From Chitinophagaceae bacterium (lineage in GTDB: Bacteria > Bacteroidota > Bacteroidia > Chitinophagales > Chitinophagaceae), in NCBI GenBank assembly GCA_025449935.1, contig JANWIJ010000082.1, positions 1-64,000 of the forward strand: a DNA stretch of 64,000 bases, in the 5' to 3' direction. The translations under genes were made by a program, and so were the position numbers. Of this stretch, positions 44,560 through 59,679 are shown piece by piece (position 1 is the stretch's first letter; every line of letters starts with the position of its first letter). Under the pieces are notes generated by a model that saw nothing but the letters and a program-made list of their open reading frames with translations, made no database searches and was not told the DNA's origin.

Positions 44560-44717
44560 AACAAAGAATCGGGGGTACAAGTATGTGAGTTGCCGGGGGA
44601 TAAAATACATTAAAAAAAAAACGATCTAACGCATTAAATTCCAGTACCGGTTTGTTAATATTTGCCTATATTTAATTGGGGAATATTCCCTTTCTTTGCA
44701 TCCGAAAACCTAACTAT

Positions 44718-47700
44718 ATGCTTAAGAGAATTGTATTTCTTTTTGCCCTGGCCATTATTACCGGCCCGTTGTTATTTGCCCAAATAACTACCTCTTCCAT
44801 AAGTGGCAACGTAAAAAGCACGACTGATGATGCACTGGTTGGTGCGACGGTTGTAGCCACTCACCTGCCTTCCGGCACAAAATATACTACGGTGTCCCGG
44901 TCAGGTGGTGTTATCAGGATTGAGAATATGAGACCGGGTGGTCCCTATCTCATTGAAGTGAGTTTTGTGGGTCATGACCCCGAGAAACTGGAAAATATTT
45001 ACCTGCAACTGGCTGAGACCTTTGTCCTTAATTCTTTCCTGAAGAAAACAGAAGCCACGCTGGAAACTGTTGTGTTAACCACCGGGAGAAGAAATTCCAT
45101 CCTTAATGCAAACAGGACTGGCGCGGTTACCAATATCGGTCTTCGCCAGATTACACAGTCACCCACCATTAACAGGAGTATCAATGATCTTACCCGTGCT
45201 ACCCCGCAATCAAATGGTGCTTCAGTGGGCGGTGGTAACTACCGGCAAAATAATTTTACCGTTGATGGTGCTGATTTCAATAATAGTTTTGGCATCGGTA
45301 ACAACCTCCCCGCCAACGGTGCTCCTATTTCCCTGGATGCCCTTGACGAGATCTCTGTAAATATTACCCCTTATGATATTCGCCAGTCTGGTTTTATCGG
45401 CAGCGCTATCAATGCGGTGACCCGCTCCGGAACAAATACGTTCAGCGGTTCTGTGTATACCTATTTCAGGAATGAAAAACACCGGGGTGACAAGGTGGAA
45501 AAAACAACATTTATCCGGCCCAAAGAAGAATATAAGCAACATGGTGTACGCCTGGGCGGCCCGATCATCCGGAATAAATTATTTTTCTTTTTCAATTATG
45601 AAAAAGAGACCCAGCCCAAAACCATCCAGACCAGATTTGCTGCCACTCCCGGCGCACCTTTTGGAAGTTCAGACAACATAGCCAGGCCAACTGCCGATTC
45701 CCTGAATGCTATCAGCCAGTATCTCCTGAATACCTACGGATATGAAACCGGCCCCTACGACAATTATACGCCCAATATTGAAAGGACAAAATATATGGCC
45801 AGGCTCGACTGGAATATTAATCAGCGACACAGGTTCAATGTTCGTTACAGCCAGGTAGAAGGTGGTGAACCCAACCCGCCAAGTACCTCAACTACCGGTG
45901 CAGGGTATACTTATCCGGCAGGCCTTACCAGGACCAATAACAATTCACTCTGGTTCAAGAATTCTAATTATTTCCAGGGAGCTAATTTTTACTCCTTCTC
46001 TGCCGAACTGAACTCTAATTTCGGGAGAGTAGCAAATACATTGCGCGGAACCTTCACCTACCAGAATGACTCCCGTACTTCCGAAAGCACGGTGTTCCCG
46101 TTTGTGGATATCCTGAGTTCAACCTCAATATCAGCCCCGGCTCCGTATACTTCTTTCGGATATGAGCCCTTCAGCTTCGGCAACCTGCGTAAAGTAAAAA
46201 TGTATTCTGTTGTTGACAATATTACCTGGACAACAAAGAAGCACAGCTGGACAGCCGGCGCCCAGGTTGACCTGAGCGAAACCATCAACGGTTTCCAGCG
46301 TTTTGCGACAAGTCACTATGTATATAATACCTGGAATGATTTTATCACGAATCAAAAACCAAGAGATTTCGCTTACACGTATTCTCTTTCAAAAGATTTT
46401 GCACCGGCATTTTCTGCTTTCAAATTTGTACAGGTTTCTGCCTATATCCAGGATGAAATCGCGATTAACAGGAATTTCAGGCTGACGCTGGGTTTAAGAG
46501 TGGATCAACCTTCTTATCCCGATGTACCGCAAATATTAACTCACCCGCTGGTGTTGGGCTTGACATTTGCAAACGGGCGCCAGATCAATACAGGCAATCT
46601 TCCTTCAAAACGTTTGATGTGGTCACCCCGCTTAGGATTTAACTGGGATATCTATGGAGACCGCTCCCTGCAGTTCCGTGGTGGAACAGGCCTCTTCACC
46701 GGTAAGATTCCATTTGTGTGGATTGTAAGCCAGTCAGGCGACAACGGAATGTTACAGATAACCCAGGCATTTAACGGCCAGGCCAATACTCCTGGTGTTT
46801 TCAATCCTGATCCCCGCGCCTATTATCCTGCAGCCGTACCGATCGCCGGTACTGTAGTTCCAAGTGCTATCACAGCCATGGACCAGGATTTTAAGAACCC
46901 ACAATCCTGGAAGTCAAGCCTTGCCATGGACACCAGGTTGCCCTGGGGCATTATTGCCACCGTAGAAGCCATCTTTAATAAAGATTTTTACACAGCATAT
47001 TTTGAAAATGTCAACCTCGTAACGCCACAGGCGCTGAATGTAGCAGGGTACCCGGACAACAGGGCCATTTACCCTGTGAGTAATACACAAAAATATATCA
47101 ACCCATTAACCGGGGCCGGACTTCCCAGCCCAACAGGTACATCAGCATTCAATGCAATAGTTATCAAGAATGGTACCCGGGGATATTATTTCTCCCTGAC
47201 TGCTAAATTTGAGAAGCCTTTCAGCAAAGGATTCAATGCGTCAATAGCTTATACAAAATCAATGGCGGGTAACCTGTTTGACGGTAATGGCGACCAGCCC
47301 CTTTCTGCATGGCAGGGCGTACAAACTGTAAACGGCGCCAATTATCCTGTGATGGGATATGCAGATTATGTAACTCCTGACAGGGTGGTTGGTTTCCTTT
47401 CTTACCGCAAAGAATATTTCAAGCATCTTGCCACATCGATCGGCGTTTTTTATAATGGTGGTATCGCAGGCAGGTATTCTTACACCTATGGAGCCGATTT
47501 CAACCGGGATGGACAGAATAACAATGACCTGATCTATATTCCAACTGCCACGGAAGTGCAGCAAATGCAGTTTGTGTCACAAACACTGAATGGGGTGGTT
47601 TATGACCAGGCAGCACAGCGGACTTTGTTCGAATCCTATATCGGCCAGGATAAATACCTCAGAAAACACCGGGGCCAGTATGCTGAAAGAAATGGAGCAC

Positions 47701-48029
47701 AGTTCCCATGGCGCAACCAGGTGGACGTTAAACTGATGCAGGACCTTTTTGTAAACATTGGAAAAACAAAGAATACCCTCCAGTTTACCCTTGATATTTT
47801 CAACGCCGGCAACCTCATCAATCCAAGCTGGGGTAAGTTTAAAATAGCCAATGCAGCGTCTATCCTGGTGCCCACTAACCCTACTGCATTAGTTGCAGGC
47901 GGCACGGTGGTTCCCCAGTTCAGGCTGGCTGCTGACCAGGGCAATATCATCACCCGCACTTTCCGCGATAACGTAAGTGTTGGTTCTACCTATTCTATCC
48001 AGTTTGGTTTAAGATATATCTTCAACTAA
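44718..48029 (+). CDS. TonB-dependent receptor, Oar type
   Basis: An outer-membrane receptor of 1103 residues. Signal peptide about 1-22 (GPLLFAQ) from the Met at 44718; the frame extends to 44676 without benefit. A CarboxypepD_reg-like domain (about 24-105) is followed by the plug (about 115-245) with NNFTVDGADFNNSFG and AINAVTRSGTNTFSGSVY, the Oar signature, and a large 22-strand barrel. There is no SusD gene nearby, so it is not a SusCD pair. Oar-like receptors are known in Myxococcus (cell adhesion, development) and as protease secretion or uptake components in Bacteroidota; the ligand here is unknown. Confidence 0.9.
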   Translation: MLKRIVFLFALAIITGPLLFAQITTSSISGNVKSTTDDALVGATVVATHLPSGTKYTTVSRSGGVIRIENMRPGGPYLIEVSFVGHDPEKLENIYLQLAETFVLNSFLKKTEATLETVVLTTGRRNSILNANRTGAVTNIGLRQITQSPTINRSINDLTRATPQSNGASVGGGNYRQNNFTVDGADFNNSFGIGNNLPANGAPISLDALDEISVNITPYDIRQSGFIGSAINAVTRSGTNTFSGSVYTYFRNEKHRGDKVEKTTFIRPKEEYKQHGVRLGGPIIRNKLFFFFNYEKETQPKTIQTRFAATPGAPFGSSDNIARPTADSLNAISQYLLNTYGYETGPYDNYTPNIERTKYMARLDWNINQRHRFNVRYSQVEGGEPNPPSTSTTGAGYTYPAGLTRTNNNSLWFKNSNYFQGANFYSFSAELNSNFGRVANTLRGTFTYQNDSRTSESTVFPFVDILSSTSISAPAPYTSFGYEPFSFGNLRKVKMYSVVDNITWTTKKHSWTAGAQVDLSETINGFQRFATSHYVYNTWNDFITNQKPRDFAYTYSLSKDFAPAFSAFKFVQVSAYIQDEIAINRNFRLTLGLRVDQPSYPDVPQILTHPLVLGLTFANGRQINTGNLPSKRLMWSPRLGFNWDIYGDRSLQFRGGTGLFTGKIPFVWIVSQSGDNGMLQITQAFNGQANTPGVFNPDPRAYYPAAVPIAGTVVPSAITAMDQDFKNPQSWKSSLAMDTRLPWGIIATVEAIFNKDFYTAYFENVNLVTPQALNVAGYPDNRAIYPVSNTQKYINPLTGAGLPSPTGTSAFNAIVIKNGTRGYYFSLTAKFEKPFSKGFNASIAYTKSMAGNLFDGNGDQPLSAWQGVQTVNGANYPVMGYADYVTPDRVVGFLSYRKEYFKHLATSIGVFYNGGIAGRYSYTYGADFNRDGQNNNDLIYIPTATEVQQMQFVSQTLNGVVYDQAAQRTLFESYIGQDKYLRKHRGQYAERNGAQFPWRNQVDVKLMQDLFVNIGKTKNTLQFTLDIFNAGNLINPSWGKFKIANAASILVPTNPTALVAGGTVVPQFRLAADQGNIITRTFRDNVSVGSTYSIQFGLRYIFN

Positions 48030-48173: not shown

Positions 48174-48986
48174 TTACTTCCCCCAACCCCATTTCAGGAA
48201 CACAGGCATTGCCCTTCCCCAGGTAAAAACATCATGATGCCCGTCAGGCATCTCGAGGTAATGTATATCTTTTGTTCCGTCATATCCCTTACGCTTCAGT
48301 TCGCTGATCAGGTCCTGTGTGTCGTCAATAGAATCAATGATCCCATTGTGGTTGCGGTCCTTCGTTTCATCCATATTACCGCACTGGAAAAAAAATTTCA
48401 ACCAGGGGGCATATTGCCCGCTCCTCACCTGCTGGTGCATGATGCGGTGAAGATCATCATCATATTCTGATTCCACCTGGTCTACGCTGCGCCACCATAA
48501 GGAAGCTGAGAACAGTCCCACCTTGGTAAATTCTCCGGGCCGGTTCCACACAATATCTAATGCACTTAATGCACCCAAAGAAAACCCGGCAAAGGCTTTT
48601 TCTTTGAAAGAAGACAGCCCATATTTTCCCCGGATAAAAGGCAGCAGTTCATCGAAAATAAATGAGGTATACAACCCGGCTTTGGCGCCCCGCCCTTTAA
48701 AATCTGGCTGGTGCTGGGTGCCGTATTCCATTTTACGTTCGACGCCGGCGTGAATGGCTACATATAGCAGGGGTTCAATGGCTTGTCCGGCGTATAATTT
48801 GTCCAGGATAGATTCAAAATGCATTTTCTTCATGTCCTGCCCATCATTGATAAGGAGGAGACTTATCGAAGAAGAGTCGGTCGCTGTGCGGGGCAGGAAA
48901 AAATCAACATGAACTTCCCGCTTCAGGTAAACAGATTTAATTATTTCATTTTCGGTCAGAATACCGGATTCATTTGCCATTTGCAT
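48174..48986 (-). CDS. Alpha/beta hydrolase, putative esterase (EstD/Fes type)
   Basis: A cytoplasmic esterase of 270 residues of the putative-esterase family (PF00756 type, as in enterochelin esterase and S-formylglutathione hydrolase). The nucleophile elbow GFSLG has S136; the C-terminal His lies in MPDGHHDVFTW, and an acidic partner is probably near the NHNGIIDSIDD loop. That loop (DRNHNGIIDSIDD) also looks like a calcium-binding motif. No signal peptide. Two start codons are possible (48986 or 48980); a TACTTTTG promoter element lies only 5 nt before the first. Substrate unknown. Confidence 0.82.
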   Translation of the reverse strand: MQMANESGILTENEIIKSVYLKREVHVDFFLPRTATDSSSISLLLINDGQDMKKMHFESILDKLYAGQAIEPLLYVAIHAGVERKMEYGTQHQPDFKGRGAKAGLYTSFIFDELLPFIRGKYGLSSFKEKAFAGFSLGALSALDIVWNRPGEFTKVGLFSASLWWRSVDQVESEYDDDLHRIMHQQVRSGQYAPWLKFFFQCGNMDETKDRNHNGIIDSIDDTQDLISELKRKGYDGTKDIHYLEMPDGHHDVFTWGRAMPVFLKWGWGK

Positions 48987-49169: not shown

Positions 49170-50123
49170 ATGAAGAAAATCGGAATTCTACACGGCAAGG
49201 AACGCACATTTCCTGAAGCATTTGTGGCAAGAGTAAACAGCAAAAAGGTTCCCGGTATTGTGGCCGAACCCGTGCGGATTGATAAAGCCATGCAGGGGGT
49301 GCATAGCGGTTATGCTGTTATTATTGACCGGATTTCACAGGATGTACCTTTTTACAGGACCTGGCTTAAGAATGCTGCCGTAACCGGAACCGCCGTCATC
49401 AACAATCCTTTCTGGTGGAGTGCCGATGATAAATATTTCAACAACTGCCTGATGACCAAAGTAGATGTACCGGTCCCCAAAACAGCCATCATTCCCTCGC
49501 GGGATTTGCCGGATGATACTACGGATGATTCGTTCAGTAACCTCGCTTTCCCGCTTGACTGGGATGCCATTTTTAAATATGTTGGATTCCCGGCTTATAT
49601 GAAACCATTTGCCGGTGGCGGGTGGAAACATGTATATAAATTAACCAGTTCGGAAGATTTTTTCAATAAACACAGCGAAACAGCACAGCTGGTCATGTTG
49701 TTGCAGGAAGAAATAGTGTTCACGGAATATTACCGTTGTTATTGCATCGGCGGCAAACATGTACGGATTATGTCTTATGAGCCGCGCAACCCGCACCATC
49801 TCCGTTATGTCGCTGATTTCAAACCCTCCCCCGAAAGGTTGAAACAAATGACAGATATCGTTCTGCGGATCAATAAATACCTCGGCTATGATTTCAACAC
49901 GGTCGAGTTAGCCGTCAGGGATGGTGTGCCTTATGCGATTGATTTTTGTAACCCTGCTCCTGATGCTGACAAGCCCAGCGTTGGTGAAGAGAATTTTGAA
50001 TGGGTGGTGGAAACCTCCGCTAATTATGCCATTGAAAAAGCCATGGAAAATAAGGAGGGTGCAGACAATCTTACCTGGGGAGAATATGTAAGAAGGGGCA
50101 GTAATAAAAGCCCGTTGGTATAA
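49170..50123 (+). CDS. RimK-like ATP-grasp ligase
   Basis: A 317-residue protein with the ATP-grasp fold of the RimK/glutathione-synthetase group. The N-terminal pre-ATP-grasp part (1-90) leads to AVINNPFWWSADDKYFNNCLM, the point where ATP-grasp enzymes hold the hinge; the central Lys-bearing strand is PAYMKPFAGGGWKHVY with its flexible Gly loop, then LQEEI (ATP clamp), and the C-terminal metal site is in AVRDGVPYAIDFCNPAPD (Asp and Asn). Such enzymes join a carboxylate to an amine through an acyl phosphate. It is followed by a GCS2-type ligase, so the two probably act on the same product. Substrate unknown. Confidence 0.82.
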   Translation: MKKIGILHGKERTFPEAFVARVNSKKVPGIVAEPVRIDKAMQGVHSGYAVIIDRISQDVPFYRTWLKNAAVTGTAVINNPFWWSADDKYFNNCLMTKVDVPVPKTAIIPSRDLPDDTTDDSFSNLAFPLDWDAIFKYVGFPAYMKPFAGGGWKHVYKLTSSEDFFNKHSETAQLVMLLQEEIVFTEYYRCYCIGGKHVRIMSYEPRNPHHLRYVADFKPSPERLKQMTDIVLRINKYLGYDFNTVELAVRDGVPYAIDFCNPAPDADKPSVGEENFEWVVETSANYAIEKAMENKEGADNLTWGEYVRRGSNKSPLV

Positions 50124-50125
50124 AT

Positions 50126-50232
50126 CGTTTGTAGTTTATTTTTTTAGTTTGAAGGCAGAGCAGTACTAAACCAGTAGGTCTCTTTCACCAATCGTAAATC
50201 AATTATAAACTACAAGCCAAAAACTTTAAACT
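50126..50232. repeat. Inverted repeat pair between the two ligase genes
   Basis: GTTTGTAGTTTA at 50127-50138 pairs with TAAACTACAAGC at 50206-50217 (11 of 12), and a second, weaker pair (AGTTTGAAGG with CCAAAAACTTTAAACT) lies just inside and outside. The left arm begins 2 nt after the stop codon of the ATP-grasp gene. Confidence 0.65.
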
Positions 50233-50237
50233 GACTT

Positions 50238-51347
50238 ATGATATTAAACTATAAGAGCTTTACACTCGGCGTGGAAGAAGAATACATGGTGCTGGATCCC
50301 AATACCTTTGAACTGAAAAGCCATGAACAGAAGATCGTACAGGAAGGACAAAAGGTGATCAAGGATAAGGTAAAAGCTGAAATGCACCAGGCAGTGGTGG
50401 AAGTGGGGACCGATATTTGTGCCGATATCGATGAGGCTTTTTCTGATGTGGCATCCCTGCGTAAAACGATCAGCGGTATAGCTACTGACCTGGGATTTGC
50501 CATGGGTGCATCCGGTACGCATCCCTTCAGTCACTGGGAAAGCCAGCTGATCACGGACCATATCCGCTACAGTGAGATTGTCAATGAACTGCAGGAAGCT
50601 GCCAGGAGTAACCTCATCTTCGGGCTTCACGTGCACGTGGGCATGGAGAACCGGGAAATGGCCAACCACATTGCGAACAGCACCCGTTATTTCCTGCCGC
50701 ATATTTTTGCATTGAGCACCAATTCCCCCTTCTGGGAAGGCAGGATGACGGGCTATAAATCTTTCCGGACCAAAGTATTTGATAAATTCCCCCGCACGGG
50801 AATTCCCGACGCTTTTGAAAGTATCGAAGCTTATGATAACTATGTAAAACTCCTGATCAAAACGAATTGCATTGACAATGCGAAAAAGATATGGTGGGAC
50901 CTGCGGGTGCATCCATTTTTTAATACAGTAGAGTTCCGTATCTGTGATATCCCGATGACCGTGGATGAAACAATTACCATTGCCGCATTGTTCCAGGCCA
51001 TTTGTGCACGGATTTATATGTTACGTTCCAAGAACCTGAACTTCATACAATATTCCAGAGCCTTGCTCAATGAGAATAAATGGAGGGCCAGCCGTTATGG
51101 CGTTGATGGTTACCTGATCGATTTCGGAAAAGAAGAAGAAGTGAACACCCGGGCATTGATCTATGAGCTGCTTGATTTCCTGGACCCGGTACTTGACCAT
51201 CTTGGCAGCCGCCACCGGGTAGCACACGTACATAAAATGCTGGAAAATGGCACGGGTGCCGACCGCCAGCTGGCTGTTTTTGAAAAATCAAGGAACCTGA
51301 GCGCCGTAGCAGAGTATATCCATAGCCAGTTCCTGGCGGGCGTGTAA
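50238..51347 (+). CDS. Carboxylate-amine ligase, GCS2 family (YbdK type)
   Basis: A 369-residue member of the glutamate-cysteine ligase family 2 with the start FTLGVEEEYMVLDP, the glutamate- and metal-binding Glu cluster, HQAVVEVGTD, GLHVHVGMENREMANHIANS and RVHPFFNTVEFRICDIPMT. E. coli YbdK has weak gamma-glutamylcysteine ligase activity, but the natural substrate of most members is not known. It follows an ATP-grasp ligase after 114 bp and is 17 to 53 bp from an ICMT-like gene. Together with the downstream amidotransferase it suggests synthesis of a gamma-glutamyl or related amide. Confidence 0.9.
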   Translation: MILNYKSFTLGVEEEYMVLDPNTFELKSHEQKIVQEGQKVIKDKVKAEMHQAVVEVGTDICADIDEAFSDVASLRKTISGIATDLGFAMGASGTHPFSHWESQLITDHIRYSEIVNELQEAARSNLIFGLHVHVGMENREMANHIANSTRYFLPHIFALSTNSPFWEGRMTGYKSFRTKVFDKFPRTGIPDAFESIEAYDNYVKLLIKTNCIDNAKKIWWDLRVHPFFNTVEFRICDIPMTVDETITIAALFQAICARIYMLRSKNLNFIQYSRALLNENKWRASRYGVDGYLIDFGKEEEVNTRALIYELLDFLDPVLDHLGSRHRVAHVHKMLENGTGADRQLAVFEKSRNLSAVAEYIHSQFLAGV

Positions 51348-51400
51348 GTGAGCGGATTATCTTTTTGAAAAGGATAGCCCCGCATCTACCAATCGTTGAA

Positions 51401-51886
51401 ATGAATCTTTATTTCAGGATATTCAGATCCATCATCTATGTTCCGTTGTTCATCTTTTTTTTTGGCTGGATAGCAGAGCGTGTTCGTATTTACGATCAAA
51501 AAATTGGTTGGGTCTTACCTGCGTGGGCTACCCTTCCCGGGATTTTACTGATGGCAGCAGGAGGCCTGCTTGTTTTAACTTGTGTAACTTTTTTTATTAT
51601 ACGCGGAAAGGGAACGCCTGCATTCTTTGATGCACCGACCGAATTTGTTGCAACCGGACCCTACCGCTATGTAAGGAACCCGATGTATATTGGAGGATTT
51701 ATTTTATTGATTGGATTTGGTTTGGTCCGTCATTCAATTTCCATTCTTATATTTTCAATCCTATACATGGTCTTATTTCATTTGTTTGTTGTTTATTATG
51801 AAGAACCCACGCTGGAAAAACAGTTTGGGAAAAGTTACCTGGACTATAAGAAAAAAACACACCGGTGGATACCAGGCTGGATATGA
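51401..51886 (+). CDS. Isoprenylcysteine carboxyl methyltransferase-like membrane protein
   Basis: A 161-residue integral membrane methyltransferase of the ICMT/PEMT group. About four membrane helices and the C-terminal SAM-binding signature are present: ATGPYRYVRNPMYIGGFILL followed by EEPTLEKQFGKSYLDYKKK. In bacteria these proteins methylate unknown small molecules, lipids or isoprenoid compounds. The Met at 51401 is chosen; the frame extends to a TTG at 51365, only 17 bp behind the ligase stop. The position suggests, but does not prove, a link to the ligase genes. Confidence 0.8.
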   Translation: MNLYFRIFRSIIYVPLFIFFFGWIAERVRIYDQKIGWVLPAWATLPGILLMAAGGLLVLTCVTFFIIRGKGTPAFFDAPTEFVATGPYRYVRNPMYIGGFILLIGFGLVRHSISILIFSILYMVLFHLFVVYYEEPTLEKQFGKSYLDYKKKTHRWIPGWI

Positions 51887-51927
51887 AAACCTGGTAGGCG
51901 AATACCCGCGCTACAGAACTTACACCA

Positions 51928-52962
51928 CTAGAATTTCCCCGCATCAACATCTTTAACAAACCCGATCACCCCATTCATAAAAACCTGCTGGTCATCCCAC
52001 ATGGCCAGGTGGCTACCGTTAGGGCAATAGAGATAGCGGCCTTTCTGCACCAGTTTGCTTTGTTCTTCCATCGCTTCAGGATCCATCGTATCATGCTTTG
52101 CGCCTATCATTAGCGTGGGCACCTTTATTTCTTTGAGCCGGTTCTTTATATCCCATGTAGCCAGTCTTCCGGCAATACCAAACTCGGAAGGTCCCTGCAT
52201 CATCGTATAGATCTCCGCATTTATATGCTTAAAGGAACGGTTAGCCGGTTCGGGCCATTCAGGAAGACGGCAAAGATGTTTTGCGTAAAAATTGGGTAAT
52301 AACAATTCCATGTAACGCGGATTGGTAAAATCTCCTTTGGCTTCCAGCGCCCGGATTTCTGCCAGCACAGGACTATCCATCTGTGGCGCCAGTACCTCGC
52401 TGGCATATTTGCCGTAGTCAGTGGCGCTGGCCATCATATTGGCGACGATCAGCCCCTTCATGTGCTGCTGGTATTTGAGCGCATATTCCATTGCCAGGAT
52501 TCCACCCCATGAATTACCAAGCAAATAAAAATTTGCTGCGTCAGCGCCAATGGCTTTTCGTACCTGCTCCACTTCTTCGACAAACCTTTCGGTGGTCCAC
52601 AGGCTGCTGTCCTTTGGCTGGTCGCTGTAATAGGAACCTAACTGGTCGTACTCATAAAACTCAAAGCCTTCTTTCGGGAAAAAGCTTTCAAAGCATTCCA
52701 TGTATTCATGCGTCATGGCAGGTCCGCCATGCAGCAACAATATTTTGATGCGGGGATTGTTGCCAAACCGCTTTGTCCATACCTTAAAATTGCCCACCGG
52801 TGTCTGGATGGGAATCATTTTAATACCGGCGGACTGTATCCCGGTGTCACCATAGTTATAATAATCTGAAAGATGGATATGACTCCCCGTATCCTGGCTG
52901 GATGGCTGGCTGCAGGAAAGGATAACCATCAATGCCACCGGCAAAAAAAGTAGGCGCTTCAT
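51928..52962 (-). CDS. Proline iminopeptidase-family hydrolase, lipoprotein
   Basis: An alpha/beta hydrolase of 344 residues of the peptidase S33 group. The N-terminus MKRLLFLPVALMVILSC is a lipoprotein signal (lipobox ILSC, C17). The oxyanion motif is LLLHGGPAMTHEY, the nucleophile S151 in GNSWGG, the Asp in GAKHDTMDPEA and the His in NGSHLAMW. Family members remove N-terminal proline or act on small amides and esters. It is convergent with the ICMT-like gene and divergent from the amidohydrolase, so it breaks the run of ligase genes on the other strand. Confidence 0.87.
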   Translation of the reverse strand: MKRLLFLPVALMVILSCSQPSSQDTGSHIHLSDYYNYGDTGIQSAGIKMIPIQTPVGNFKVWTKRFGNNPRIKILLLHGGPAMTHEYMECFESFFPKEGFEFYEYDQLGSYYSDQPKDSSLWTTERFVEEVEQVRKAIGADAANFYLLGNSWGGILAMEYALKYQQHMKGLIVANMMASATDYGKYASEVLAPQMDSPVLAEIRALEAKGDFTNPRYMELLLPNFYAKHLCRLPEWPEPANRSFKHINAEIYTMMQGPSEFGIAGRLATWDIKNRLKEIKVPTLMIGAKHDTMDPEAMEEQSKLVQKGRYLYCPNGSHLAMWDDQQVFMNGVIGFVKDVDAGKF

Positions 52963-53014
52963 AACAAGTGATTTTAGGTAAAAGGTAAATCATTAATTTC
53001 TGTATTTTCATCCG

Positions 53015-54676
53015 ATGAAAAAAATACACCTGCCGGCCGCCATAGTGTTTGGCATTTTTTTATGTTCCTGTTCCCGGAAAGAAAAAGTTGACCTGCTGGT
53101 ATTCAATGCCCGCATTTATACCGTAGACTCCTCTTTTTCCATCGCGGAAGCAATGGCGGTAAAAGACGGGAAGATTGTGGCAGTAGGTAAAACAGCTGAG
53201 CTGGAAGAAAAATATGACAGCCCGGAAAAACTGGATGCAGCGGGGAAATTCATTTATCCCGGTTTCATTGATGCGCATGCGCATTTTGTGGGTTATGGCA
53301 CCAGCCTGCAGCGGGTAAATTTAATGGGGACCGAAAGCTGGGAAGAAGCTATTGAGAGGGTAAAAGTTTTTGCCGCAGAAAACCTCCCTGCCGGGCAGGA
53401 TGGTAAAGAAGCCTGGATAACCGGCCGTGGCTGGGACCAGAATGACTGGGCAGTAAAAGATTTCCCAACCAATGAAAAATTAAGTGAGCTGTTTCCTGAC
53501 AGGCCGGTACTGCTGACCCGTGTGGATGGTCATGCTGCCGTTGCCAACCAGAAAGCGCTGGACATGGCAGGAATAAAAGCCGGTGATACTTTAACAGGCG
53601 GAGAGATTGAAGAAATGGAAGGAACACTAACCGGGATCCTGATCGACAATGCAGTTGATCTTGTTTCGGCAAAAATTCCTGACGCGACACAGGAGCAGTT
53701 TAAAAAGGCCCTCCAGGCTGCCGAAAAAAATTGTTTCGCCATGGGTTTAACTACTATCGATGATTGCGGCCTGAGTTATGTATCGGTTGATATGATCCGG
53801 GAATTACAGGCCAGCGGAGATCTGAAAATGCGATTGTACGTAATGCTCAGTGATGAAAAAACAAATTATGATTATGCGGACCGGAACGGGATCATCAAAA
53901 CGGACCGTTTGAATGTGAGAAGTTTTAAGGTGTACGGCGATGGCGCATTGGGTTCAAGGGGTGCCTGCTTACTACAGCCTTACAGCGATAAACCGGGGCT
54001 TTATGGTTTCCTGTTAAGCAACCCCAAGCACTTTGACTCAGTGGCCAATTATATTTCAAAAAAAGGCTGGCAGATGTGTACCCATGCAATCGGCGACAGT
54101 GGCAACCGCACTATGCTGAATATTTATGCCAGATATTTAAACGGGAGGAATGATCTGAGGTGGCGCATTGAGCATGCACAGGTGATCAATCCAAATGATT
54201 TTAATTTGTTTGGAATCAATTCTATTATACCATCCGTGCAACCCACGCATGCCACCTCGGATATGTACTGGGCCGGTGACCGGCTTGGTGCAGAAAGAGT
54301 GAAAGGAGCTTATGCTTTTAAACAGCTCCTGCAGCAAAATGGGTGGATTGCACTGGGAACTGATTTCCCCGTTGAAGACATTTCCACGTTCAAAACTTTT
54401 TTTGCCGCCGTTGTCAGAAAGGATGCCAAAAACTGGCCGGCAAATGGTTATCAAACAGAAAATGCCCTGACACGGGAAGAAGCACTAAGAGGAATGACCA
54501 TCTGGGCAGCCAGGTCCAATTTTGAAGAACACGAAAAAGGAAGCCTTGAAAAAGGGAAGTTTGCAGATTTTATCATCCTTGATAAAGACATTCTGCAGGC
54601 GGCGGAAAATGAGCTCCTGCAAACGATGGTACTGAAAACTTTTGTTGGGGGTGAAAAGGTTTACGAAAAAAAATAG
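53015..54676 (+). CDS. YtcJ-type amidohydrolase, lipoprotein
   Basis: A metal-dependent amidohydrolase of 553 residues (amidohydrolase 3 group). The N-terminus ends in a lipobox (FLCSC), so it is anchored outside the inner membrane. The metal site is complete in outline: HxH in GFIDAHAHF (H88, H90), CTHAIGD, RIEHAQV and the catalytic Asp in GTDFPVE. Relatives act on N-substituted formamides, acyl-amino acids or cyclic amides; the substrate is unknown. It is 110 bp upstream of the glutamine amidotransferase gene, which has its own promoter. Confidence 0.9.
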   Translation: MKKIHLPAAIVFGIFLCSCSRKEKVDLLVFNARIYTVDSSFSIAEAMAVKDGKIVAVGKTAELEEKYDSPEKLDAAGKFIYPGFIDAHAHFVGYGTSLQRVNLMGTESWEEAIERVKVFAAENLPAGQDGKEAWITGRGWDQNDWAVKDFPTNEKLSELFPDRPVLLTRVDGHAAVANQKALDMAGIKAGDTLTGGEIEEMEGTLTGILIDNAVDLVSAKIPDATQEQFKKALQAAEKNCFAMGLTTIDDCGLSYVSVDMIRELQASGDLKMRLYVMLSDEKTNYDYADRNGIIKTDRLNVRSFKVYGDGALGSRGACLLQPYSDKPGLYGFLLSNPKHFDSVANYISKKGWQMCTHAIGDSGNRTMLNIYARYLNGRNDLRWRIEHAQVINPNDFNLFGINSIIPSVQPTHATSDMYWAGDRLGAERVKGAYAFKQLLQQNGWIALGTDFPVEDISTFKTFFAAVVRKDAKNWPANGYQTENALTREEALRGMTIWAARSNFEEHEKGSLEKGKFADFIILDKDILQAAENELLQTMVLKTFVGGEKVYEKK

Positions 54677-54751
54677 AACCCGCATAATTAATAACGCTTA
54701 ATTTGAATCAATAGAACCCACAATTGTGCGTAATTCCACTACCCAACCGGC

Positions 54752-54782
54752 TGTGTAATGCATTATAAAATCATTATTTTTG
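54752..54782 (+). promoter_or_regulatory. Promoter of the amidotransferase operon
   Basis: TGTG at 54752-54755 and TATTTTTG at 54775-54782 with exactly 19 bp between. The ATG at 54787 lies 4 nt after the -7 element, so the transcript should be leaderless or nearly so. Confidence 0.6.
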
Positions 54783-54786
54783 TTGA

Positions 54787-55632
54787 ATGAGCTGGAATGA
54801 AAACAGGGCTGTAAAAGTAGCAATCCTCGATCTCTATGAAGGCAAAGCCAACCAGGGCATGCGCTGTATCCGTACCATCCTCCGCGAATGGGGTGAATCC
54901 AACCAGCTTGACCTGCATACAGTGGAATTTGATGTGAGATTGAAAAATGAACTGCCTGATGCTTCCTTTGATGTATATATTTCCAGCGGGGGACCCGGTG
55001 ATCCATTAGTGAGCCGTTTTGAGGATTGGGATATTGCCTGGTGCCGGTGGCTTGACAAAATGGAACGCTGGAATGCAAACCCTTCGAACATCCGGAAGAA
55101 GTACATTTTTTTTATCTGTCATTCCTTCCAGCTGGCCAGCCGTTATTTTAATGTGGGTTTGGTTTCCAAAAGAAAATCAACCGCCTTTGGTGTGTTCCCG
55201 GTTCATATGCTGGAGGGAGGTAAGGATGAACCTGTTTTTGATGCACTTCGTGATCCATTTTATGCCGTGGACAGCCGCGACTTCCAGGTTATTCAACCCA
55301 ACCACAACCTGCTGACGGAAATGGGTGCTAAAATTCTTTGTATTGAAAAAAGTCGTCCCCATGTGCCCTATGAACGGGCTATCATGGGTATCCGGTTCAA
55401 TGATCACATGATTGGTACACAGTTTCATCCCGAAGCCGATGCAAAAGGTATGAGCATGTACCTGCAGACAGCAGAAAAACGGCAAACGGTTATTGAAAGT
55501 CACGGCGAGGATAAACTTATCAGCATGCTGGAACATTTAAATGATCCTGACAAGATCATGTGGACCCAGGCCCATATACTCCCCAATTTCCTGAATAACG
55601 CGGTTGAACAATTACAGGAAGTAATGGTATAA
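54787..55632 (+). CDS. Class I glutamine amidotransferase
   Basis: A stand-alone class I (triad) glutamine amidotransferase of 281 residues, with SSGGPGDPL as oxyanion region, the nucleophile C111 in FFICHSFQLASRYF and the His-Glu pair H214, E216 in GTQFHPEAD. Such domains split glutamine and hand ammonia to a synthetase; free forms may instead hydrolyse gamma-glutamyl bonds. It starts a compact operon (gaps of 47, 17 and 2 bp) with an ATP-grasp-like gene, a cupin and a barrel protein, which suggests that the ATP-grasp-like protein is its synthetase partner. Its nucleophile block has CHSFQ rather than the usual CxGxQ. Confidence 0.87.
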   Translation: MSWNENRAVKVAILDLYEGKANQGMRCIRTILREWGESNQLDLHTVEFDVRLKNELPDASFDVYISSGGPGDPLVSRFEDWDIAWCRWLDKMERWNANPSNIRKKYIFFICHSFQLASRYFNVGLVSKRKSTAFGVFPVHMLEGGKDEPVFDALRDPFYAVDSRDFQVIQPNHNLLTEMGAKILCIEKSRPHVPYERAIMGIRFNDHMIGTQFHPEADAKGMSMYLQTAEKRQTVIESHGEDKLISMLEHLNDPDKIMWTQAHILPNFLNNAVEQLQEVMV

Positions 55633-55679
55633 GATTTTCTCCCTGTTTTGGTTCCCCGCCGGGCATTTGCTAACTTCCG

Positions 55680-56891
55680 TTGAAAACAGGCATTATGATA
55701 CCGGCCATCCGCAAAGCTTACAACAGCGCATTTACAACGGAAAAATATGAGGCCTTTTTAAAAGAACTTCACGCTGCACACCGGGATGCGCTTGACTTCC
55801 GTGTTGCAGAAACTCCCATCTTTGTTCCGAAGGATTTTACAGACAAAATGCTGGATGCCTGTGAAAGCATTATCAACATCATTGTCGACCCATCCTTCAA
55901 GGAACTTACCAAAAATGCGATTCCCCGGAACTGGCAGGTACCTGGTGAAAACGATCATACTCATTTTATTGCCTTTGACTTTGGTATTTGTATTAATGAC
56001 AGCGGCGGGTATGAGCCACAACTGATCGAAATGCAGGGGTTTCCTTCCCTGTTTGCCTATGAAGTATTGCTGGATGATGTATTCAGGCATCATTTCCCGG
56101 TGGCGGACAATTTTTCCTGTTACCTGGGTGATTATGACCGGGAAAGCTATATCCGGGCAATGAAAGATATCATTATAGCGGGCCATGACCCGGAAAATGT
56201 AATCCTGCTGGAAATATTCCCCAAAAAACAAAAAACAAGGATCGATTTTTTTTGTACGGAAGATTACCTGGGTATCAGGATGGTTTGCCTGACGGAGCTG
56301 ATAAGGGAAGGTAACAAACTGTTTTACCTGCTTGATGGCCAGAAGACTGCGGTGAAGAGAATTTACAACCGTGTCATCTTTGATGACCTGGAACAACAGA
56401 GTCCGGAAGTGCAGGAAAAAGGAAAAATTTTCTTTGAACCCCTGGAGGTGGAATGGTGCCCGCACCCAAACTGGTTTTACAGGATCAGCAAATACACGCT
56501 CCCGCTGATCCGGCATCCCTATGTGCCACAAACGTTTTATTTAAATGAAGTAAAACAAATACCCGCTGACCTCGAAAATTATGTATTAAAGCCGTTGTTC
56601 TCTTTCGCAGGGCAGGGCGTGGTCATTGACGTGACGCGGCAGGATATAGACAAAGTAAAAGACCCGGAAAACTGGATCCTGCAGCGGAAAGTAAAATATG
56701 CAGAAGTAATTAATACCCCGGATGTGCCGGCCAAGGCCGAGATAAGGCTATTCTATTTCTGGAAAGACGGTGAAGCGAGACCTGTCGCGACCAATAACCT
56801 GGGAAGGCTGAGCAAGGGAAAAATGATCGGTGTTCGTTATAACAAAGACAAAGAATGGGTGGGTGGAAGTTTTTGTTATTTTGAGAAATAA
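55680..56891 (+). CDS. Diverged ATP-grasp-like protein (circularly permuted or glutathionylspermidine-synthase-like)
   Basis: A 403-residue protein without a family I can name with certainty. Features of an ATP-grasp enzyme are visible: an acidic QLIEMQGFPSLFAYE segment that may bind metal or substrate, KRIYNRVIFDDLEQQ, the Lys and Gly loop in YVLKPLFSFAGQGVVID, the clamp WILQRKVKY, and AEIRLFYFWKDGEARP with the Glu and Arg. The order fits permuted ATP-grasp proteins related to glutathionylspermidine synthase. It lies between a glutamine amidotransferase and a cupin, so an ATP-driven amide or peptide formation is plausible. The alternative start at 55695 (ATG, third Met-like position) would remove only five residues. 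Confidence 0.68.
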   Translation: MKTGIMIPAIRKAYNSAFTTEKYEAFLKELHAAHRDALDFRVAETPIFVPKDFTDKMLDACESIINIIVDPSFKELTKNAIPRNWQVPGENDHTHFIAFDFGICINDSGGYEPQLIEMQGFPSLFAYEVLLDDVFRHHFPVADNFSCYLGDYDRESYIRAMKDIIIAGHDPENVILLEIFPKKQKTRIDFFCTEDYLGIRMVCLTELIREGNKLFYLLDGQKTAVKRIYNRVIFDDLEQQSPEVQEKGKIFFEPLEVEWCPHPNWFYRISKYTLPLIRHPYVPQTFYLNEVKQIPADLENYVLKPLFSFAGQGVVIDVTRQDIDKVKDPENWILQRKVKYAEVINTPDVPAKAEIRLFYFWKDGEARPVATNNLGRLSKGKMIGVRYNKDKEWVGGSFCYFEK

Positions 56892-56908
56892 TTTGAACCA
56901 ATTATTGT

Positions 56909-57223
56909 ATGCAACAAATTAAAAATATCAGTCCCAAAGAACTGGTACCCGGTATCACGGGATATTACGCCCATGCTAACAGCATGACCTTTGGTTATGT
57001 TGAATTAAGAGCGGGGAGCAGCATACCCACGCACCAGCATGTGCACGAACAGATCACTTATATTTTAGAGGGAGAGCTGGATATGGTGATCGGCGGCGAA
57101 GCTTGTTTACTGACAGCCGGTATGTATCATGTCATAACTTCCAATACGCCTCATTCAGCTATTGCGAAAACAGCCTGTAAGGTCATTGATGCCTTCAGCC
57201 CGGCACGGGACGATTATAAATAA
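56909..57223 (+). CDS. Cupin domain protein
   Basis: A single-domain cupin of 104 residues. Motif 1 reads THQHVHEQITYILEGE (H42, H44 and E47 as likely metal ligands) and motif 2 has NTPHSA with H82. The small size and the second motif fit metal-binding cupins with enzyme or sensor roles. Operon position (17 bp after the ATP-grasp-like gene, 2 bp before the barrel gene) suggests that it acts on or senses the product of these enzymes. Confidence 0.87.
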   Translation: MQQIKNISPKELVPGITGYYAHANSMTFGYVELRAGSSIPTHQHVHEQITYILEGELDMVIGGEACLLTAGMYHVITSNTPHSAIAKTACKVIDAFSPARDDYK

Positions 57224-57225
57224 TC

Positions 57226-58014
57226 ATGGGGATGATAAGACAGCTGCTTATTTTATTTTCCAGTTATGCCCACCTGGCAAGCTATGCACAGGCTGATAAC
57301 GAAATACAGGTTTACGCTTCGCCAACGATCCAGCATCAATGGACCATATTTGAATTGCATTCCAATTATACATTCAAGGGAAGTAAACTGCTCACCGTTC
57401 CCCGTTCAGCCAAATGGACCAATGAAACCCTGGAGATCACGCATGGTTTTGGAAAGAATTTTGAAATTGGCTTTTACACATTCACCGGGGTTGCACCCGG
57501 CGGCGGTTTTCAATATTTGGGCAACCAGGTAAGACCAAGGATCACGGTACCCGAGTCATGGAAATGGAATATGGGCGCCAGCCTTTCCCTCGAGTTCGGT
57601 TTTTTCAGGCCGGATGATACAAGCCAATTTTGCTGGCAGGGTGAACTTCGTCCTATCATAGATAAAACACTCAGGAACTGGTATTTTTCGTTTAACCCGA
57701 ATTTAGACTTTGTAATATCGGGGCCGGAAAAAGGGGTGGGTATATCGCCCCAGTTTAAGACCGTATATACAATCAATCAAAAACTGGGGTTGGGGATTGA
57801 ATATTATGGCAGCCTGGGTTCATTCAAAAGAGTATTACCGGGCAACCTGCAGGAACACCTGGCCGGCCCGGTGATCGACCTTTATCTTCATCCTATGTGG
57901 GAGATCAATGGTGGTTTTTTATTTGGTTTGACTGAAAATACAAACCAGCGGGTTCTCAAGCTGCTGTTGGGCAGGAGAATAGCCGGCAGGGCAAAAGAAA
58001 AAACTCAAAAATAG
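57226..58014 (+). CDS. Predicted outer-membrane barrel protein, unknown
   Basis: A 262-residue exported protein with a signal peptide of about 21 residues (HLASYAQ). The mature part has regularly spaced amphipathic strands rich in Trp, Tyr and Phe (NYTFKGSKLLTVP, FEIGFYTFTGVAPGGGFQYLG, MGASLSLEFGFF), as in outer-membrane barrels of Bacteroidota. It starts 2 bp after the cupin gene and so belongs to the operon; it could export or import the product. Its 3' end overlaps the end of the convergent porin gene by 10 bp. Confidence 0.72.
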   Translation: MGMIRQLLILFSSYAHLASYAQADNEIQVYASPTIQHQWTIFELHSNYTFKGSKLLTVPRSAKWTNETLEITHGFGKNFEIGFYTFTGVAPGGGFQYLGNQVRPRITVPESWKWNMGASLSLEFGFFRPDDTSQFCWQGELRPIIDKTLRNWYFSFNPNLDFVISGPEKGVGISPQFKTVYTINQKLGLGIEYYGSLGSFKRVLPGNLQEHLAGPVIDLYLHPMWEINGGFLFGLTENTNQRVLKLLLGRRIAGRAKEKTQK

Positions 58015-59234
58015 GTGGCGATACCAAATTGGAAACCCGCGAGCTTTGAAGCCGGATTTCCCAGGATATCTTTTTGCCAGTTGTACCGGTAGTTTAACCG
58101 CAGGACAGTTTGCGCTCCCGGCCTCCAGCTGATCGCCGGAACAAGGGAGAAAATATCATCAGCAATGTTGGACCCGGTAGCCGAAAATTTTCCTTTATTC
58201 CAGTCAACATACTCTAACCGCAGGGCAACATTGATCACTGATTTCTCAAATCCGAAAACCGGTTTTTTGAACACAGGCTGCACAAGATCAATAAAACCAC
58301 CCTGCTGTTTTTCCCCAAACTGTTCCGAATACGTATCAGGAACATCCACCTTAACCCAGGCCCATTCGCCATTGACAACCGTTTTTGTTTTTGAAACCGT
58401 TGTATTAAAGTCAATAGCAAAAACATTCACTCTTCTTTTTTTATCCAGCCGCAAACCATCTTCCTGGTATTTATTATACACCCCCCCCATATAAGAAAGA
58501 CCCAGTTCCCCTGCTTTATTATTTCTTAACGCTACTTTACCGGTGACAAGGGGACTGCCGTTAAAACTTTCTTCAAAGCGGTCGGGGTTTTCCTTGGTGG
58601 CCGGAAGAAAAGTTTTGTTCTCCCCATTGGCAATAACCCGGTCATCAAAACCATTGGTCAGGTAAACTTCATAAGCATATACCCAGTCCTTCCGGTATTG
58701 CTTCCCATAAAGGCCAAACCCGACATTACTGAAAGTGGCCGGTAACATTTGCGTAGCAGAAAGCGGCCGGTCAACAAATTCCCACTTTGGACCGTCATGG
58801 TTTTGATTAAACGCGCCTATAGGATTCATAACGATACCGCCGCGGAAATTCAAAAGGGGGTTAAATTCAATATCCACCGAAGCAAACTCAATATTGATTT
58901 CCTTGGTGCCGTCTTCAAACTCAATCTCGCTTAGAAACTTAATCCGGTTGGCGATGGAAGAAGAGACAAACAACGTGAGCCTTCTCATCTGGAACTGGTG
59001 ACCTTCTGTTACACCGTCCTGCTGCAGGTACTGGTAGTTGGCTTCCGCGTATCCGCCAAGTGCCACCGGCAACTTCCCAGCCTGGAGGAAAGGACGATTG
59101 TATACAGCATCCATATTCAATTGCGGCTTGCTGGTATCCTGCGGAATCCGCCGGAGCAACGAAGGATCAACCTGCGCAGTTACTGTAGAAGTAACCCAAC
59201 AAAAAAAGAAAATGAATAAGTATATTTTTTTCAT
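58005..59234 (-). CDS. Porin (phosphate-selective porin O/P type)
   Basis: A 409-residue outer-membrane porin. Signal peptide about 1-20 (VTSTVTAQ). The first strands (LPVALGGYAEANYQYLQ, HQFQMRRLTLFVSSSI, IKFLSEIEFEDG) and the C-terminal aromatic end (FGIATYF) fit the porin O/P and related families. It is the last gene of a three-gene unit: its start overlaps the Rieske gene stop by 4 bp. The pore probably serves substrates or metal for the two redox proteins (inference). Confidence 0.82.
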   Translation of the reverse strand: MKKIYLFIFFFCWVTSTVTAQVDPSLLRRIPQDTSKPQLNMDAVYNRPFLQAGKLPVALGGYAEANYQYLQQDGVTEGHQFQMRRLTLFVSSSIANRIKFLSEIEFEDGTKEINIEFASVDIEFNPLLNFRGGIVMNPIGAFNQNHDGPKWEFVDRPLSATQMLPATFSNVGFGLYGKQYRKDWVYAYEVYLTNGFDDRVIANGENKTFLPATKENPDRFEESFNGSPLVTGKVALRNNKAGELGLSYMGGVYNKYQEDGLRLDKKRRVNVFAIDFNTTVSKTKTVVNGEWAWVKVDVPDTYSEQFGEKQQGGFIDLVQPVFKKPVFGFEKSVINVALRLEYVDWNKGKFSATGSNIADDIFSLVPAISWRPGAQTVLRLNYRYNWQKDILGNPASKLAGFQFGIATYF

Positions 59235-59677
59235 ATAGCTCTGAGGTCAATAAATAATTGATTGCCGGCAACCGATACCGGGAAATTCCGGAGATTCCTG
59301 TCTGCCGGGCCCGTCTTTACCGTGCCTTTGCTATTAAACTCGCTGCCATGTGCGGTACATTGCAGGTAATCACCCGATACCTGTAATTCAGCACCCTGGT
59401 GCGTGCATTTCATCCACAAAGCTGAATACTCGTTTTCACTGAACCGGTATACACATACAGGATACTGCAAGGCTTCATTCCTGATAATAATAAATGGACG
59501 GTAGGCGGTTTTCCCCTGCTGCCTGGTCACGAATTCATTTATATCAATTGTCAATCCGTCTTTTCCCAGCGTACCACTGATATAACGGGTGGCTGTACAG
59601 GATGATAATACAGCCGTCACACCGGTTGCGGATAAACAGGCCGTGCAGCTGTTTCTTATAAACTTTCTTCTGTCCAT
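59231..59677 (-). CDS. Exported Rieske [2Fe-2S] protein
   Basis: A 148-residue Rieske protein. The cluster ligands are C91 and H93 in CTHQGAEL and C107 and H110 in CTAHGSEF. The start MDRRKFIRNSC is a twin-arginine type signal, and SSC at 25-27 can be a lipobox, so the folded protein is probably exported by Tat and anchored as a lipoprotein. It lies 2 bp after the di-haem gene and overlaps the porin start; the trio is translationally coupled. The protein should pass electrons in the periplasm or at the outer membrane. Confidence 0.9.
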   Translation of the reverse strand: MDRRKFIRNSCTACLSATGVTAVLSSCTATRYISGTLGKDGLTIDINEFVTRQQGKTAYRPFIIIRNEALQYPVCVYRFSENEYSALWMKCTHQGAELQVSGDYLQCTAHGSEFNSKGTVKTGPADRNLRNFPVSVAGNQLFIDLRAI

Positions 59678-59679
59678 TC

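Follow-up and report, generated by a model that had tools for sequence, protein, structure and literature searches.

The locus between positions 49170 and 57223 of the window (the whole 64,000-nucleotide stretch that was analysed) appears, on balance, to hold the genes of a conserved pathway whose product would be a small amide or peptide-like metabolite, two ATP-grasp ligases of different subfamilies, here named GraspA and GraspB, forming the core of the pathway. A joint pathway is well supported for GraspA, the carboxylate-amine ligase GCS2, the glutamine-amidotransferase-fold protein GAT and GraspB, together with the esterase Est1. Of the genes between these positions, roughly half are bystanders. 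In the preliminary description the entire neighbourhood had been read as one pathway; this stands for GraspA, GCS2, GAT and GraspB, which co-occur and cluster, and falls for the methyltransferase, which is not conserved, for the cupin, iminopeptidase and "barrel" genes, which are lineage-specific at most, and probably for the amidohydrolase, also lineage-specific at most. The enzyme set is apparently undescribed, and no description of this gene set was recognised in the titles and first parts of abstracts of the open-licence literature.

Genes of the locus

All open reading frames described earlier are present in the sequence at the coordinates given for them, and every gene from 49170 to 57223 lies on the plus strand except the hydrolase at 51928-52962, as had been stated. 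The two promoters proposed for the locus have no support beyond chance: the window contains 35 sites that fit the Bacteroidota-type pattern, a consensus with up to one mismatch allowed, where 32.6 would be expected at random. One such one-mismatch site lies at 54753-54782, directly upstream of the GAT start.

GraspA (49170-50123, plus strand) had been called a RimK-like ligase, and an ATP-grasp fold of the RimK/LysX/Ddl type is supported by a confident AF2 model (pLDDT 89.3) with Foldseek matches to D-Ala ligase, ArgX, LysX and RimK at E values of about 1e-11 to 1e-12. The protein scored 25 bits with the RimK family model TIGR00768, below the cut-off of 143, and matched no Pfam family above its cut-off. 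The residues K145, E246, D258 and N261, which we take to be catalytic, are each kept in at least 97% of 91 sequences.

The suspected second, diverged ATP-grasp protein, GraspB (55680-56891, plus strand), gave an AF2 model with a pLDDT of 94.9, and Foldseek matched it to 8fbz (a glutathione synthetase; E 1.6e-14) and also to 3n6x and 7uk8. Its structural relatives by Foldseek are the human and yeast glutathione synthetases, the putative GspS 3n6x and YgiC, and a profile match to YgiC was obtained at E 0.0066. The fold predicted by the model is thus the ATP-grasp fold of the glutathione synthetase/glutathionylspermidine synthase/YgiC type, in agreement with the earlier suspicion. No Pfam or NCBIfam model matched the window protein at its cut-off; GSP_synth did not match it at E 0.1, which leaves it outside the curated GspS/YgiC models, and matched 23 of 74 GraspB members weakly, with a best E value of 0.00037. 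The true start of GraspB is probably the ATG at 55695; M6 is nearly invariant.

GCS2 (50238-51347, plus strand) was firmly confirmed as a carboxylate-amine ligase of the YbdK/PRK13515 type, with 194.8 bits for PF04107, 513 bits for PRK13515 (cut-off 371) and 287 for TIGR02050 (cut-off 176). It is separated by 3.4 kb, with unrelated genes in between, from the free class I GAT (54787-55632, plus strand), whose family assignment holds with 28.6 bits for PF00117 (cut-off 22.8) and an intact Cys111-His214-Glu216 triad. The three triad residues are invariant in 47 aligned sequences and present in at least 97% of 145, and the GGPG loop is invariant. Typical amidotransferases carry the nucleophile motif G-x-C-x-G. 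This motif was not found at the nucleophile elbow of GAT, which reads F-I-C-H-S-F in the window.

Conserved esterases had been overlooked in the preliminary description, one here and two elsewhere. The one here, Est1 (48174-48986, minus strand; PF00756, 80 bits), is divergent from GraspA and lies outside the interval given. An Est1 homologue is present in 21 of 120 GraspB loci, and in 27 of 28 cases it is on the strand opposite to GraspB. Strong Est1 matches (E 1e-50 or better) were found in 62 of 198 genomes of the order, and 61 of these are among the 78 with GraspB; a strong match to Est1 or Est2 occurs in 71 of the 78.

The remaining genes of the interval show no such conservation. The product of 51365-51886 (plus strand) is a methyltransferase as proposed, of a PEMT/ICMT-like kind: PEMT fits better (PF04191, 65 bits, over its cut-off) than ICMT (22.6 bits, cut-off 24). 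With a homologue in 1 of 120 GraspB loci, it was rejected as a pathway member. The proline-iminopeptidase-family hydrolase at 51928-52962 (minus strand; TIGR01250, 360 bits, cut-off 168) is an occasional neighbour, present in 17 of 120 loci, and was likewise rejected; by eye it carries a lipoprotein signal. The same kind of signal is seen by eye in the amidohydrolase at 53015-54676 (plus strand), for which the proposed YtcJ-type family proved correct (PF07969, Amidohydro_3, 297 bits). This protein is found in 30 of 120 loci and within 3 kb of GraspB in 3 of 75 loci of the order, and an amidohydrolase (29-34% identical) directly precedes GraspB in five distant loci. It is a lineage-specific companion at most and probably unrelated to the core, but because of these five loci it was not rejected as a member. 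The cupin at 56909-57223 (plus strand) was correctly assigned to its family (PF07883, 52.6 bits) and rejected as a member, with homologues in 27 of 120 loci and within 3 kb of GraspB in 3 of 75 loci of the order. The protein at 57226-58014 (plus strand), predicted to be exported, was rejected too (16 of 120 loci); it had no Pfam match at E 0.001 and none over the cut-off at E 10, so that the label "barrel" stays a reading of its sequence. Porin neighbours, the methyltransferase and the iminopeptidase are outside the pathway.

Conservation of the core genes

The core genes were found to occur together and to cluster in related genomes, as the joint pathway had implied. Among 198 genomes of the order, GraspB is present in 78, GraspA in 77, GAT in 77 and GCS2 in 51. 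GraspB is accompanied by GAT in 77 of its 78 genomes and by GraspA in 74, a shared presence that partly follows phylogeny, so that Fisher values for it overstate independence. In one family (f18), one and the same set of 24 genomes out of 36 holds GraspA, GAT and GraspB. Of 75 loci of the order, 53 have GAT no more than 3 kb from GraspB, 52 of them with both genes on one strand, and in 35 GraspA is at most 9 kb away from GraspB. The linkage of the core spans many families and classes. In a phylum sample of 40 loci, GraspA was linked in 21, GCS2 in 24, GAT in 16 and an M29 peptidase in 4. In some distant lineages (five genomes) GraspA and GraspB are both present and unlinked.

GraspB was found in 92 of 296 sampled genomes of the phylum and GraspA in 92 of 257. 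The genome searches were confined to the phylum, which makes "Bacteroidota" a limit of sampling; one contig scan covered close relatives. By named records, the carriers are mostly environmental Bacteroidota; they include Sediminibacterium, three loci of which contain both GAT and GraspB. A plasmid search for relatives of GraspA and GraspB gave no match.

Neither GCS2 nor a GAT/M29 hydrolase is universal among genomes with GraspB. GCS2 is absent from 28 of the 78 such genomes of the order. In four loci an M29 peptidase stands in the place of GAT, between GCS2 and GraspB, and GAT was not found in these four genomes; a fifth genome also has M29, with GAT not found. GraspB is kept without a GAT match in 20 of 24 examined phylum genomes, a count that is not a rate because 23 of them were picked for GAT being unseen beside GraspB, and 15 of the 24 lack both GAT and a close M29. 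Because an M29 peptidase occupies its slot in other genomes, the glutamine-dependent, amide-forming activity previously ascribed to GAT is doubtful.

A second variation concerns the other ligase. In 12 of 15 fetched GraspA loci from genomes without GraspB, the gene order is GraspA-CPG-GAT, where CPG is a permuted ATP-grasp protein different from GraspB, with a profile match to 3n6x at E 8e-8. Compared directly by profile, GraspB and CPG showed no significant similarity (probability 3.7), and their relation therefore rests on shared matches to 3n6x. Three further loci from genomes without GraspB, with GraspA 31-40% identical, show no other core genes.

Proposed pathway and alternatives

Beyond what was observed (folds and families, intact catalytic residues, co-occurrence, clustering and the GAT/M29 exchange), we infer an order of steps, their substrates, a hydrolytic role of GAT and a role of the esterases. 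GCS2, in the lineage of the window, would make a gamma-glutamyl or similar amide, a gamma-glutamyl product being probable. GraspB would convert a free carboxylate to an acyl phosphate and couple this with an amine or amino acid, in the way of glutathione synthetase, and GraspA would add another residue. The GAT-fold protein would then hydrolyse an amide or peptide bond, for trimming, deprotection or turnover, rather than supply ammonia. The PF00756 esterases might act on ester or thioester forms; the roles given to them are guesses. On the best reading, two or three ligases assemble a small amide or peptide, which a hydrolase of exchangeable kind then trims. The enzyme set, present as a group in many Bacteroidota, probably makes and trims a small compound of this sort that resembles glutathione. 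A more specific version is put forward tentatively: it is possible that a widespread, unnamed Bacteroidota pathway produces a pseudo-peptide resembling glutathione or glutathionylspermidine by two different ATP-grasp ligases, with either a GAT-fold hydrolase or an M29 metallopeptidase as the trimming enzyme and one or the other of two permuted ATP-grasp families providing the second ligase.

GAT and GraspB could instead form a two-subunit glutamine-dependent amide synthetase in the manner of CarA/CarB, in which ammonia freed from glutamine by GAT is coupled by GraspB to an acyl phosphate. This would fit the invariant triad and GGPG loop, the presence of GAT in 77 of 78 GraspB genomes of the order and its proximity to GraspB, at 3 kb or less in 53 of 75 loci. 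However, the M29 metallopeptidase in the GAT slot, the GraspB genomes without a GAT match (20 of 24, chosen as described above), the F-I-C-H-S sequence in place of G-x-C-x-G and the fact that the ligases closest to GraspB take amines instead of ammonia make such a synthetase unlikely. S-formylglutathione hydrolases are members of PF00756, and their membership, with GCS2 standing alongside a ligase of the glutathione synthetase fold, would suit a low-molecular-weight thiol (a glutathione analogue) whose S-acyl forms are the substrates of the esterases. We regard this as improbable. The bacillithiol family BshC was found in 180 of 198 genomes, including G000, with and without the cluster, so that no missing thiol is being replaced and a replacement of bacillithiol was rejected; moreover, no formylglutathione-hydrolase model was among the three matches of Est1 at E 0.001.

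It is quite improbable that the genes serve protein modification or peptide tagging, with GraspA, like RimK, attaching residues to a protein and a peptidase taking them off. RimK, LysX and ArgX are among the best structural matches of GraspA, and some loci have linked peptidases of unrelated folds (M29, and M17 in one), but 89 core regions yielded no conserved small open reading frame that could encode a carrier or ribosomal precursor, their 565 small frames containing only two pairs of similar ones (BLAST is weak on such short frames), and relatives of GraspB, among them YgiC and YjfC, work on small peptides. A tagging system of permuted ATP-grasp, alpha-E and NTN-peptidase proteins is said to have been described by Iyer in 2009; alpha-E and NTN-hydrolase genes were not recognised by eye among the 30 commonest neighbour families. 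Chance proximity or lineage-specific gene order accounts for the PEMT, iminopeptidase, cupin and "barrel" genes and probably for the amidohydrolase; as an account of the core it is refuted by co-occurrence and linkage across many families and classes, and for the locus as a whole it deserves virtually no credence.

If the proposed pathway is correct, a common metabolite of Bacteroidota is as yet unnamed, as about one third of sampled phylum genomes carry GraspB and a similar share GraspA. For deletion and metabolomics, the genes of the set are clear choices. The exchange of GAT for M29 would be a clean instance of one protein replacing a non-homologous one, and it would suggest that peptidases can be found among free GAT-fold proteins.

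Comparison with known systems

Carbamoyl-phosphate synthetase pairs a class I GAT with an ATP-grasp protein, and a class I GAT gene lies beside an ATP-grasp gene here as well; unlike in those pairs, GraspB is of the glutathione synthetase/GspS type and a peptidase takes the place of GAT in some genomes. Iyer and co-workers reportedly surveyed neighbourhoods of ATP-grasp peptide ligases in 2009, in which ATP-grasp ligases are linked to peptidases and other ligases, an arrangement also seen here. GraspB has the permuted ATP-grasp fold in common with glutathionylspermidine synthase, YgiC, YjfC and eukaryotic glutathione synthetase, and two of its conserved lysines align with YgiC. YgiC and YjfC are described as acting on small peptides (PMC12568646). 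GraspB differs from this group in being 10-14% identical over the 22 best structural alignments and in having GCS2, GraspA and GAT as neighbours, and no amidase domain was found in it by Pfam. Glutathione biosynthesis likewise combines a GCS2 ligase with a ligase of the glutathione synthetase fold in one gene set, whereas the present set has in addition a RimK-like ligase, an exchangeable GAT/M29 protein and esterases, and is missing GCS2 in 28 of 78 genomes.

Gene content of the cluster

All open reading frames named in the preliminary description were found in the window. Pfam and NCBIfam searches agreed with its family calls for the carboxylate-amine ligase (GCS2, 50238-51347, +), the Amidohydro_3 amidohydrolase (53015-54676), the class I glutamine amidotransferase (GAT, 54787-55632, +) and the cupin (56909-57223). 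The methyltransferase (51365-51886) is of the PEMT type, and the hydrolase at 51928-52962 (-) belongs to the proline-iminopeptidase family. GraspA (49170-50123, +) and GraspB (55680-56891, +), the two proposed ATP-grasp proteins, gave no Pfam match above cut-off. A PF00756 esterase identified by Pfam (Est1, 48174-48986, -) lies divergently just before GraspA, outside the interval originally proposed (49170-57223). Adjoining the cluster, 44676-48029 encodes a TonB-receptor-like outer-membrane protein (Oar-type by eye), which a neighbour family from 10 loci resembles, also by eye. Convergent to the cluster end are minus-strand genes (58005-60867) for porin-like, Rieske-like and diheme-cytochrome-like proteins, named by eye. 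The source assembly comprises 3.5 Mb in 118 contigs, and the closest named GraspB relative is found in a Chitinophagaceae MAG (82%).

Predicted structures and conserved residues

An AlphaFold model of GraspB, built on a 74-sequence alignment (A1), reached a mean pLDDT of 94.9. The first 22 Foldseek matches in the PDB, which are all those with E <= 0.001, share 10-14% identity and comprise eukaryotic glutathione and homoglutathione synthetases, synthetase-like proteins, the putative glutathionylspermidine synthase 3n6x, and E. coli YgiC and YjfC. The ATP-grasp fold suspected for this protein is thus borne out by the model. YgiC was also matched by the GraspB sequence profile (E 0.0066), and Lys-271 and Lys-304 of GraspB align with YgiC lysines. 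In PMC12568646, YgiC and YjfC are termed peptidylpolyamine synthetases and a "peptide-spermidine ligase activity" is credited to Pederick et al. 2023. The GraspA model (pLDDT 89.3) matched D-Ala ligases, ArgX, LysX and RimK. By these models, GraspA and GraspB are both ATP-grasp proteins, of different subfamilies.

GraspB residues Asp-100, Glu-117, Gln-119, Lys-271 and Lys-304 are invariant in 74 sequences; the first three are putative counterparts of the GspS magnesium ligands. In GraspA, Lys-145, Glu-246, Asp-258 and Asn-261 are each present in at least 97% of 91 sequences. GAT residues Cys-111, His-214 and Glu-216 are invariant in 47 aligned sequences and each present in at least 97% of 145, and Ser-136 and His-251 of Est1 occur in at least 97% of 29.

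Co-occurrence across genomes

At a threshold of E <= 0.001, GraspB was detected in 78, GraspA in 77, GAT in 77 and GCS2 in 51 of the 198 genomes of the order. GraspB and GAT occur jointly in 77, the sole exception (G046) holding a 267-base GraspB fragment. GraspA and GraspB occur jointly in 74; GraspB is found without GraspA in four genomes and GraspA without GraspB in three, two of the latter being weak matches (31-32% identity). GCS2 is accompanied by GraspB in 50 of 51 genomes, one of the 50 (G176) being just 31% identical. Strong esterase matches, counted to the exclusion of numerous weaker ones, place Est1 (E <= 1e-50) in 62 genomes, 61 with GraspB, and Est2 (E <= 1e-60), another PF00756 esterase, about 235 residues long, in 37, 36 with GraspB; one or the other is present in 71 of the 78 GraspB genomes. 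In the order, GraspA, GAT and GraspB are nearly always present together. Fisher values for co-occurrence (1e-25 to 1e-55) overstate the case because phylogeny is ignored, yet presence is mosaic inside families: in f18, GraspA, GAT and GraspB share the same 24 of 36 genomes, and in f1 the same 31 of 35 hold GraspB and GAT, with GraspA in 30. In the phylum sample, GraspB was present in 92 of 296 genomes and GraspA in 92 of 257.

Neighbourhood of GraspB

Around 120 GraspB loci, several ending at contig edges and some from genomes counted twice, the neighbours were GAT (90), amidohydrolase (30), cupin (27), GraspA (25), GCS2 (22) and Est1 (21), and more rarely iminopeptidase (17), the putative barrel protein encoded at 57226-58014 (16), porin (2) and PEMT (1). 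When neighbours were counted at fixed distances from GraspB (GAT within 3 kb, GraspA within 9 kb), the 80 loci of the named set, biased to close relatives, gave GAT 64, amidohydrolase 24, cupin 23, barrel 13, GCS2 12 and GraspA 9. By the same measure, the order sample of 75 loci with GraspB (77 fetched) yielded GAT 53, GraspA 35, GCS2 22, Est2 18, Est1 15, amidohydrolase 3, cupin 3 and barrel 1. As a rough estimate for a genome of 4 Mb, chance alone would place a given gene within 3 kb in about 0.2% of cases. The phylum sample (40 loci), counted likewise, showed GCS2 24, GraspA 21, GAT 16, Est2 13, Est1 5, amidohydrolase 5 and M29 peptidase 4.

The complete run elsewhere is Est1(-) Est2 GraspA GCS2 GAT GraspB (e.g. 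L192, L193, L197, L200, L215); the window's genome holds two Est2 relatives (32% and 26% identity), both off the window's contig. In L213, an M17 leucyl aminopeptidase (Pfam) is encoded two genes ahead of Est2-GraspA-GCS2-GAT-GraspB, and L214 has the same gene-length pattern. In five distant loci (L220, L223, L226, L229, L230), an Amidohydro_3 gene overlaps or directly precedes GraspB, with GraspA elsewhere in the genome. A contig deposited as Williamsia sp. (L107) carries a Chitinophagaceae-like GraspB (67%) and is perhaps a mislabelled or mixed MAG.

Variant loci

In four loci (L195, L196, L204, L217) a PF02073 (M29) peptidase lies between GCS2 and GraspB, and the window's GAT as query found no GAT in these genomes. 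In G393, an M29 relative (60%) is encoded apart from GraspB and GAT was not found. Fifteen of 24 GraspB genomes checked have neither GAT nor a close M29; of the 24, all but G000 were chosen because GAT is not beside GraspB.

Fifteen GraspA loci were fetched from genomes without detected GraspB. Twelve (L232-L241, L262, L263; GraspA 49-52% identical) have the order GraspA-CPG-GAT, CPG being a 450-residue permuted ATP-grasp protein; Est2 precedes in nine and Est3 (PF00756) follows in seven. No CPG, GAT, Est2 or Est3 was found at L242-L244 (GraspA 31-40% identical). CPG weakly matches CP_ATPgrasp models and its profile reaches 3n6x at E 8e-8; comparing its profile directly with that of GraspB gave no significant match.

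In L206 (7637-10240, +), from a genus of f48, GraspB and a sodium:solute symporter (PF00474, 126 bits) form a single reading frame. The frame is broken in a second member of the genus (L270), and in a genome of another f48 genus (L212) the two are separate adjoining genes. This fusion or adjacency could hint that the substrate is imported. In three f44 genomes (L245, L257, L258), GraspA is followed by a histidine/aromatic ammonia-lyase-like gene, Pfam-confirmed in L245 alone.

Proposed mechanism

On genomic evidence a joint pathway exists, probably for a peptide-like or amide metabolite, with a membership that differs from the one originally suggested. GCS2 and ATP-grasp enzymes form amide bonds via acyl phosphates, and GCS2, GraspA and GraspB would do so here. 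GAT would cleave an amide or peptide rather than donate ammonia, because a metallopeptidase replaces it in some loci. The same exchange speaks against GAT and GraspB forming an amide synthetase pair, an alternative that we consider unlikely but that gains support from the two almost never being found separately within the order. A replacement thiol as product is disfavoured because bacillithiol genes are present regardless; an additional thiol is not countered by that. No conserved small precursor open reading frame was found in 89 core regions. No description of the gene set was recognised in the open-licence literature searched, which does not include Iyer et al. 2009, the likeliest prior source. 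Relatives of GraspB attach an amino acid or polyamine to the carboxylate of a peptide.
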